The notes below the pieces were generated by a model, which saw only the letters and a program-made list of their open reading frames with translations, was not told the DNA's origin and searched no databases. A program made the translations under genes and the position numbers. A stretch of 32,303 nucleotides of DNA from Oscillatoriales cyanobacterium CG2_30_44_21 (GTDB lineage: Bacteria > Cyanobacteriota > Cyanobacteriia > Pseudanabaenales > Pseudanabaenaceae): the NCBI GenBank assembly GCA_001873375.1, contig MNZA01000005.1:1-32303 (forward strand), in the 5' to 3' direction. Positions within the stretch are counted from its first letter, which is position 1. Each line of letters opens with the position of its first letter. Shown piece by piece: positions 7,849-27,478 of the stretch.

Positions 7849-7935
7849 TAAAACCCAGAAATAATTTTAAAAAGGGCGCAAAGCGCCCTTTTTAAAATTA
7901 TTTCTGGGTTTTAAGTCAGCGCAAAGCGCCATAAC
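7849..7935. repeat. Perfect 31-bp hairpin plus GCGCAAAGCGC tail
   Basis: Arms 7849-7879 and 7883-7913 are exact complements with an AAA loop; outer stem TAAAACCCAGAA, apex GGGCGC-AAA-GCGCCC. The tail GTCAGCGCAAAGCGCC follows at 7915-7930. This is the cleanest member of the repeat family whose outer stem and tail recur at 14282-14340 and 23677-23755. It lies after the kinase gene and can terminate it. Confidence 0.85.
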
Positions 7936-8929: not shown

Positions 8930-10789
8930 ATGTCGAAAGTAATTGGGATCGACCTTGGCACAACCAATAGTTGTGTTTCTGTTTTGGAGGGTGGCAAGCC
9001 TGTTGTTATCTCCAGTGCTGAAGGAGGACGCACAACTCCGAGTATTGTGGCTTTTGTCAAAGACAGCAATGAGCGAATTGTGGGACAAGTAGCCAAGCGC
9101 CAGTCCGTAACTAACTCAGTCAATACCATCTACAGCATTAAGCGCTTTATTGGACGAAGCTGGGACGAAACTGAAGAAGAGCGTCGCCGCGTTCCCTACT
9201 CAGCCATTAAGGGCAAAGACGATACTGTTGATGTGCAGATTGCCGATAAAACCTATACCCCTCAAGAAATTTCGGCAATGATCTTGCAAAAGCTCAAGCA
9301 AGATGCCGAAAATTATCTGGGTGAAGAAGTCACTCAAGCCGTAATTACTGTTCCCGCCTACTTCACCGATACCCAACGTCAAGCAACTAAGGACGCAGGG
9401 GCAATTTCAGGCATGGAAGTATTGCGTATTGTCAATGAGCCAACAGCGGCGGCGCTTGCCTATGGGCTAGACAAGCAGGATCAAGATCAAATTGTGTTGG
9501 TGTTTGATCTTGGCGGTGGTACTTTTGATGTGTCGGTGCTGCAATTGGGCGATGGTATTTTTGAGGTCAAAGCAACTTCTGGGAATAACCACCTTGGGGG
9601 TGATGACTTTGATGCGGCGATCGTTGATTGGTTAATTGCGGATTTTAAACAAAAAGAAAATATTGATCTAGCCGAGGACAAGACTGCTTTGCAACGGCTG
9701 AAAGAAGCTGCCGAAAAAGCCAAAATCGAATTGTCCAGCGCCCCATCGACTCTAATTAGCTTGCCATTTATTGCATCTGACGCGACTGGACCTAAAACCA
9801 TTGAGCTAGATTTCACCCGCGCTAAGTTTGATGAAATCACTGCTCCTCTGGTCAAAGCGACCTTAGGTCCAACCGCTCAAGCTCTTAAAGATGCGGGATT
9901 ACTACCTAAAGAAATTAATCGTATTATTTTAGTTGGTGGTTCTACGCGCATCCCTGCGGTACAAGAAGCGATATCAAGATTCTTTGATGGCAAAAGGCCC
10001 GATCAGTCGGTTAATCCTGATGAAGCAGTGGCGATCGGCGCCGCAGTGCAAGCAGGAATCTTGGGAGGAGAAGTCAAGGATCTCTTGTTACTGGATGTGA
10101 TTCCACTTTCGATTGGGTTAGAAACTCAGGGTGGCGTTTTTACCAAAAACCTCGAACGAAACACGACTATTCCTACCAGTAAGGCACAAATTTTCTCAAC
10201 GGCTGTAGATAATCAATCCGCCGTTGAGATTCATGTCCTACAGGGCGAACGAGCTATGGCTAAGGACAATAAGAGTCTTGGCAAATTCGAGCTAGAAGGG
10301 ATTCGTCCTGCCCCCCGTGGGATTCCCCAAATTGAGGTTTCCTTTGATATTGATGCCAACGGTATCCTTAAGGTATCAGCAAGAGACATTGATACAGGCG
10401 TTGAGCAGAGCATCAGCATTACCAACACAGGCGGTTTAAGCCCCAGTGAAATTGAAAGAATGCGGATGGAAGCTGAGGTCTATGCTGATGAGGATGGCGC
10501 AAGACGTGAACTCGCGAATATGCGTAACCAAGCTTCTAACTTGATTCGGACTGTTGAGGAAATTCTCAGAGATAATGGTCCTTCGGTAATCACCCAGAGC
10601 TTGCGTGAGCCAACTCTCAAGAATATGGAAGCCCTCAAAAACTTGTATGAGTCGGAAGAAGCAACCTATGAAGATATTCAAGTCGCAATTAAGCCCTTAC
10701 AGCAATCATTGTTTGATGTTACTCAGACAGTAGAGAAGTATTCTCAAGTTGAGCGGGTCAAACAAAAATCTGGCGATACTCTGGAGTAA
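8930..10789 (+). CDS. dnaK: Molecular chaperone DnaK (Hsp70), probably the DnaK1 type
   Basis: A 619-residue Hsp70. ATPase-domain landmarks: [13 protein letters not shown] at the N-terminus, [43 protein letters not shown] and [13 protein letters not shown]. The substrate-binding half starts near [14 protein letters not shown] and includes [17 protein letters not shown]. The C-terminal lid is short and ends KQKSGDTLE, without the glycine/acidic tail usual in the main cyanobacterial DnaK2. Being next to grpE, as I recall for the DnaK1 paralogue in Synechocystis, favours DnaK1, but that paralogue call is an inference. A 23-bp hairpin begins on the last base of the stop codon. Confidence 0.93.
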
Positions 10790-10866
10790 TCGTAAAGAGT
10801 AATGGCGGCGCGATGCGCCGCCATTACTCTTTACGATTTTGCGCGTAGTCCAAAGCGCTGTATGAT
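10789..10866. repeat. Perfect 23-bp hairpin fused to the dnaK stop codon, plus tail
   Basis: Arms 10789-10811 and 10815-10837 are exact complements with a GAT loop and the apex GGCGGCGC / GCGCCGCC seen at 4862-4880. The first base of the left arm is the last base of the dnaK TAA. A CCAAAGCGCTGTATGATC tail follows (10850-10867). Position fits a terminator; sequence fits the repeat family. Confidence 0.85.
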
Positions 10867-23785: not shown

Positions 23786-23842
23786 ACGCAGAAGTCTAAT
23801 GATAGGTGACGCGGCGCGTCACCTATCATTAGACTTCTGCGT
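23786..23842. repeat. Perfect 27-bp hairpin that invades the ligase gene end
   Basis: Arms 23786-23812 and 23816-23842 are exact complements around GGC. The right arm contains the TGA stop and last seven codons (TQKSNDR) of the minus-strand O-antigen ligase-like gene; the left arm is outside the gene and mirrors it exactly. Confidence 0.85.
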
Positions 23843-26951: not shown

Positions 26952-27478
26952 TTACCCACTTTCTAAACGATTTTTGGCGTTACATATGGCAAATTCAATC
27001 AAAAGAAGCACATCAGCATTACGACGAAAGCAGTCAAGGCGATCGCGACTGGTATTAATCCAAACATATTCTTCGAGAGTTTCTATTTGCTGATAGTCTG
27101 CAAATTTATCACCGCGGTCAAAGGCTTCCGTCGATTTTGATAGAACCTCGATAATTAGTTTCGGAAAACTTTTGTGATTTGGTGTTTGAATGTCTCTAGA
27201 GTCGCAGGTCACCATCACATCGGGATAGTAAAATCGGCGCTGAGAGTCAGTTTTTGCGTTTATATCAGAGATATAAACGCGACATTTGGAACCACGCAAA
27301 TGATTACGAATCAGCATAAAAGCATTGCTAGATATCGTCACATGGGGATCGCTTGCGCCAGCCATTGCATGAATATATCCATCGATATATTCATGCAATG
27401 GCTGGCGCTTTGTTCTTCCATTTTTAGATATTCTTAGGTCGTTATGTACACAAAATCAAGTTGAGGACTAGCAATCAT
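26952..27478 (-). pseudogene. Uma2-family (DUF820) PD-(D/E)xK nuclease gene, broken
   Basis: The main part reads HEYIDGYIHAMAGASDPH, then YYPDVMVTC, LIIEVLSKSTEAFDRGDKF and LEEYVWINTSRDRL, the Uma2 restriction-like core with Asp, Glu and Lys in place. A TTG at 27398 opens that frame but is not a normal Uma2 start. The missing N-terminus is present upstream: from ATG 27478 the DNA reads MIASPQLDFVYITT, stop, EYLKMEEQSA. So one nonsense change (TAA where CAA is likely) and one frameshift break the gene. The frameshift lies inside a perfect 25-bp hairpin (27355-27408). The C-terminus also looks cut short (ends AKNRLESG). Confidence 0.8.
27355..27408. repeat. Perfect 25-bp hairpin inside the Uma2 pseudogene
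   Basis: Arms 27355-27379 and 27384-27408 are exact complements around CATC. The lower-coordinate arm codes for YIHAMAGA, normal Uma2 sequence; the other arm replaces the residues expected between EEQSA and HEYIDG and shifts the frame. Coding DNA of normal genes rarely forms such a stem. Confidence 0.85.

Follow-up and report, generated by a model that had tools for sequence, protein, structure and literature searches.

Within the stretch of DNA analysed here (the window: 32,303 bases, the whole of contig C234 of genome G000, a Pseudanabaena-like genome of 3.5 Mb in 272 contigs), a gene of the Uma2 family changes reading frame inside a perfect palindrome. How did the gene come to break there, and is the break connected with the further perfect stems that the window contains? 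A quasipalindrome switch, in which the copying enzyme for a moment takes the new strand as its template, is a well-known kind of mutation, and an earlier note on this DNA had proposed that one arm of the palindrome was rewritten from the other in this way. Judged by comparison with related sequences, a replication error in this lineage alone very probably made a natural quasipalindrome in the Uma2 gene perfect. The mutation is of a known and well-understood kind, seen here unusually clearly.

A degenerate Uma2 gene

The gene is read from the minus strand, and its features, in window coordinates, are as follows.

27006 to 27478, minus strand: degenerate, nuclease-like gene of the Uma2 family (PF05685), with intact 190-aa homologues in the genus
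27434 to 27436, minus strand: in-frame TAA stop at codon 15, a sense codon in relatives
27384 to 27408, minus strand: gene-upstream arm of the palindrome; its inner 12 nt (27384 to 27395) are native Uma2 sequence
27396 to 27406, minus strand: rewritten stretch of 11 nt (relatives have 9 nt here), which is the exact reverse complement of 27357 to 27367 and causes the +2 frameshift
27380 to 27383, minus strand: 4-nt spacer, GATG on the gene strand, oriented as in relatives
27355 to 27379, minus strand: gene-downstream arm, encoding the end of the DGYIHAMAGA stretch; its outer part is the likely template
26952 to 27398, minus strand: 148-aa open frame with a TTG start inside the rewritten stretch; Uma2 core kept, both ends gone
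26952 to 27005, minus strand: sequence past the point where Uma2 homology ends; some 33 codons at the C-terminus of intact genes are absent

Translation from the ATG at 27478 gives MIASPQLDFVYITT*EYLKMEEQSAS before it passes out of the Uma2 frame; a second frame, two bases off, reads MHEYIDGYIHAMAGASDPHVTIS... (also written MHEYIDGYIHAMAGASDPHV...) from 27398 and carries the Uma2 reading after the ATG frame leaves off. The N-terminal remnant (EYLKMEEQSA) and the core thus stand in different frames, as the earlier note had it, and the frame switches within the gene-upstream arm of an inverted repeat that is, again as described there, exact over 25 bp (arms 100% complementary). The upstream in-frame TAA that the same note had listed as a second lesion is likewise present; a search of the nearby sequence for a reverse-complement source of this lesion found none. 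A third lesion was absent from that account: Uma2 homology ends at about 27006, and the last residues, about 33 in number, are therefore missing.

The PF05685 profile was matched at E 5.9e-31 by the 148-aa downstream frame and at E 5.4e-38 by an intact 190-aa relative, and the curated cut-off of the family is passed (107.7 bits against 27). Instead of an intact frame of about 190 aa, the window copy has an in-frame stop, a frameshift and no C-terminus; it is a pseudogene of the Uma2 family, not a working member.

In a DNA search, 25 of the genus's 26 genomes (counting that of the window) gave Uma2 matches. The closest homologues, in G002, G016, G006 and G007 (82%–86% identity, G002 being the best at 86%), are all intact 190-aa frames. 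Among named relatives, Pseudanabaena sp. ULC187bin1 came out nearest, with a dnaK region 85% identical; the nearest genome found, G042, reaches 85% nucleotide identity in the dnaK region and just 76% in its Uma2 match. None of the genus homologues is a true orthologue at the window's position: the nearest intact copy, that of G002, sits beside chlH, which adjoins the Uma2 gene in G007 as well. Because no homologue occupies the place of the window copy, the pre-event sequence is inferred from relatives rather than observed, and the pre-event state was judged by plain comparison with the alignment columns of those relatives.

Outside the palindrome, window-specific changes fall at 5 of 127 first, 7 of 133 second and 18 of 95 third codon positions. 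This third-position excess implies that most of the divergence built up under constraint; the break and the decay of the gene look recent, which agrees with palindrome arms free of new mismatches. The branch to the window copy has a length of 0.31 against 0.016 in the sister row, part of which is accounted for by the unrelated tail. The persistence of the third-position pattern and the intact Uma2 core could also be taken to mean that the palindrome and its TTG—which falls in the rewritten stretch—brought about a functional change, with the 148-aa frame still made and used. This is very unlikely. The frame is without both the N-terminal and the C-terminal parts of full-length homologues, so that a functional 148-aa product is unlikely; no good ribosome-binding site is visible by eye ahead of the TTG, and the third-position bias is equally expected from a recent break.

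The palindrome compared with its homologues

In the homologues of the genus the region reads EEQS-(D/E)IK-HEYIDGY(V/I)YAMAGA, with small variations and no shift of frame. The alignment that the earlier note had called for reveals an imperfect repeat in all of these homologues and the perfect palindrome or the frameshift in none of them. The inner 12 pairs are all matched in the window (12/12), against 6–11 (mean 9.2) in the 27 aligned genus homologues; relatives already possess an imperfect palindrome here because the motif HEYIDGYxYA encodes one, and the protein's own codons thus supply the fragile repeat. The outer 13 pairs are likewise all matched in the window (13/13), against 1–4 in the 27 homologues, whose mean of 2.8 compares with a chance value of 3.25.

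Between the EEQS codons and CATGAATAT, relatives have 9 nt and the window has 11 nt, GCCAGCCATTG. These 11 nt are the exact reverse complement of the AMAG-coding sequence about 30 nt downstream; agreement of 11 independent bases by chance has a probability of about 4^-11. If one exact reverse-complement copy is allowed, 4 to 10 fewer edits are needed than in a linear alignment for most homologues. When the closest relatives are taken one by one, the exact copied piece is just 8–11 nt long, which counts against the copying interpretation. The earlier statement that one arm is native and the other replaced requires narrowing: replacement concerns the outer part of the upstream arm (27396–27406), and the inner 12 nt of that arm are native. 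Since the spacer GATG retains the orientation seen in relatives, the centre of the palindrome has not been inverted.

Among 390 genomes of the cyanobacterial class, this palindrome, with up to three mismatches allowed, was found in G000 only. A more permissive pattern covering rewrites of this type in general produced no second case, its sole other match (G366) being a different sequence. A change that happened once, in this lineage, is the best reading of these results.

A rival explanation is an artefact of assembly or amplification, through a fold-back at the inverted repeat by the assembler or within a chimeric read. The assembly does seem to hold one such error: contig C254 of G000 ends in a perfect inverted repeat of 575 bp centred on a hairpin (L127, 7704–8856), which is probably an assembly fold-back. 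The Uma2 palindrome, however, sits well within a 32-kb contig, and a fold-back would not rejoin the original template, whereas both flanks of the rewritten stretch stay in Uma2 sequence and align normally with homologues, for a net gain of 2 nt. An artefact is accordingly highly improbable.

A template-switch model

In quasipalindrome template switching, the strand under synthesis folds back on itself and is extended along its own other arm before it rejoins the template (PMC7202029; PMC8604942). The marks of such an event are present in the Uma2 gene: relatives carry the imperfect repeat, the new bases are templated by the other arm (25 of 25 pairs), and the flanks are unaltered. The normal state of both flanks suggests that the polymerase returned to its template.

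The starting point would be the imperfect 12-bp inverted repeat that the HEYIDGYxYA codons form around GATG, as seen in relatives. In the simplest model, the nascent strand, growing towards the 5′ end of the gene, would fold back through this imperfect stem, and 13 nt of the strand's own 5′ part would serve as template for extension of its 3′ end. Rejoining of the original template would then occur at a match of 2–3 nt; by eye, relatives carrying AGCGA at the return point offer a short match of GC or GCG there. The outcome would be the 11 nt in place of 9 nt and the broken frame, a difference from all relatives.

The outer upstream arm is, from the sequence comparison, a copy of the downstream arm, and a single switch event accounts for this outer rewrite. 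Changes in the inner downstream arm run in the reverse direction: position 27374 has gone from G to A and 27371 from T to C, 27372 has probably changed as well, and each change brings the arm closer to the complement of the upstream arm. As the outer and inner changes run in opposite ways, one switch is insufficient, and hairpin mismatch repair, a second switch, or earlier substitutions would also be needed. Arm correction probably went both ways or in two steps. The inner mismatches may have been corrected towards the upstream arm either then or earlier, through mismatch repair of an extruded hairpin or a second switch, for which support is moderate. The earlier proposal of one arm rewritten from the other is thus upheld by the exact 11-nt reverse complement, but the arms were seemingly matched both ways.

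Homogenisation of repeat arms inside coding genes by template switching is documented (PMC8604942, PMC7202029). At the Escherichia coli thyA hotspot, in the lacZ QP5/QP6 reporters, in T4 rII, and in yeast CYC1, an imperfect coding repeat is similarly perfected and frameshifted by arm copying (PMC7202029). Those systems consist of selected mutants, whereas the Uma2 case is a difference in a sequenced genome, with 13 new outer pairs gained and the inner pairs matched as well. In genes of Saccharomyces cerevisiae, too, template switching homogenises repeat arms through clustered changes in coding DNA; these, however, are substitutions in working genes, in contrast to the length change, broken gene, and uninverted spacer observed here (PMC8604942). 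Template switching that makes and maintains RNA hairpins shares the four-point copying model and the perfect stems, but those stems lie in RNA genes, whereas the Uma2 stem would be a by-product in a protein gene (PMC8794818). The window very probably holds a clean natural case of quasipalindrome template switching in a cyanobacterium.

Perfect hairpins of the genus

Long perfect hairpins are very numerous in Pseudanabaena genomes (window and loci L123–L162). A count over 276 kb of the window's genome came to 165 perfect stems of 14 bp or longer, or about 6 per 10 kb, and shuffled sequences of this genome contained none of this length. Of these stems, 104 lie within 120 nt past the 3′ end of a gene and 3 inside large frames. 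Two other single-contig Pseudanabaena genomes have 2.2–2.8 stems per 10 kb; sampled sequence from other genera of the same family yields 1 stem in about 206 kb, and that from other families 1 in 148 kb. The window itself contains 14 other perfect stems (for example, at 7849–7913, 10788–10838, and 23786–23842).

With dispersed hairpins so common, one of them might simply have inserted into the Uma2 gene. The hairpins of the genus are intergenic and fall into families with recurring arms; their apex is GC-rich, their base AT-rich, and the loop mostly of 3 nt (117/165). The Uma2 palindrome has the opposite layout, GC-rich at the base and AT-rich at the apex, with 4 nt as its spacer and Uma2 codons in both arms, and its arms are single-copy in the genome, no second copy having been found. 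Insertion of a dispersed hairpin is thus barely credible next to perfection of the gene's own repeat. The other stems of the window are a class apart from the Uma2 palindrome, and the earlier suggestion that the same mechanism accounts for them is speculative: they are intergenic, mostly with 3-nt loops, and belong to dispersed families of a different layout, and signs of template switching among them are no more than suggestive.

Among similar copies of the hairpins, 1091 positions have changed in both arms with pairing kept, against 143 one-sided mismatches, and perfect ones make up 96 of 127, although these counts overstate the evidence because pairs within a hairpin family are not independent. 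Of the hairpins matched between species, 6 have inverted loops (one of them at a different place), compared with 61 that are unchanged and with 2 controls; one pair joins a compensated stem change to an inverted loop. Inversion of the loop with the stem kept is seen between sister species at L052 1344–1400 (L065 1534), L052 12751 (L065 12752), and L063 5087 and 5124 (against L067). Downstream of dnaK (10788–10838), many species have a wholly different yet perfect or near-perfect stem, and hairpins thus turn over quickly. Within dnaK itself, an apparent micro-inversion (window 9775–9785) vanished when the alignment was viewed.

The hairpin data fit template switching (PMC8794818), which may keep the stems perfect, but selection on RNA structure or the spread of mobile families could also yield perfect stems. 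It is tempting to regard the Uma2 break as one visible product of an arm-matching template switching that is unusually active in Pseudanabaena and that also builds the gene-end hairpins and keeps them perfect (many hundreds to about 2,000 long ones per genome), but this broader idea is tentative and, in our estimate, rather unlikely. The wider hairpin phenomenon is nevertheless a more interesting lead than the Uma2 break, whose main value is as a pointer to a perfect-hairpin density in the genus that is lacking in the sampled other genera of the same family. The literature searched held no account of such abundance in Pseudanabaena, which is weak evidence of absence. Comparison of sister strains could test directly whether template switching maintains bacterial gene-end hairpins.

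Loss of SbcD (a palindrome-cleaving nuclease) or of exonuclease VII was considered as a cause of the hairpins and rejected, both genes being present throughout the genus. A second SbcD-like gene exceeds the family cut-off in nearly all genomes of the genus (here at G000:C265:18719–19480). In most cases the second SbcD match is only weak in other genera of this family, and presence of the second gene coincides with hairpin abundance.
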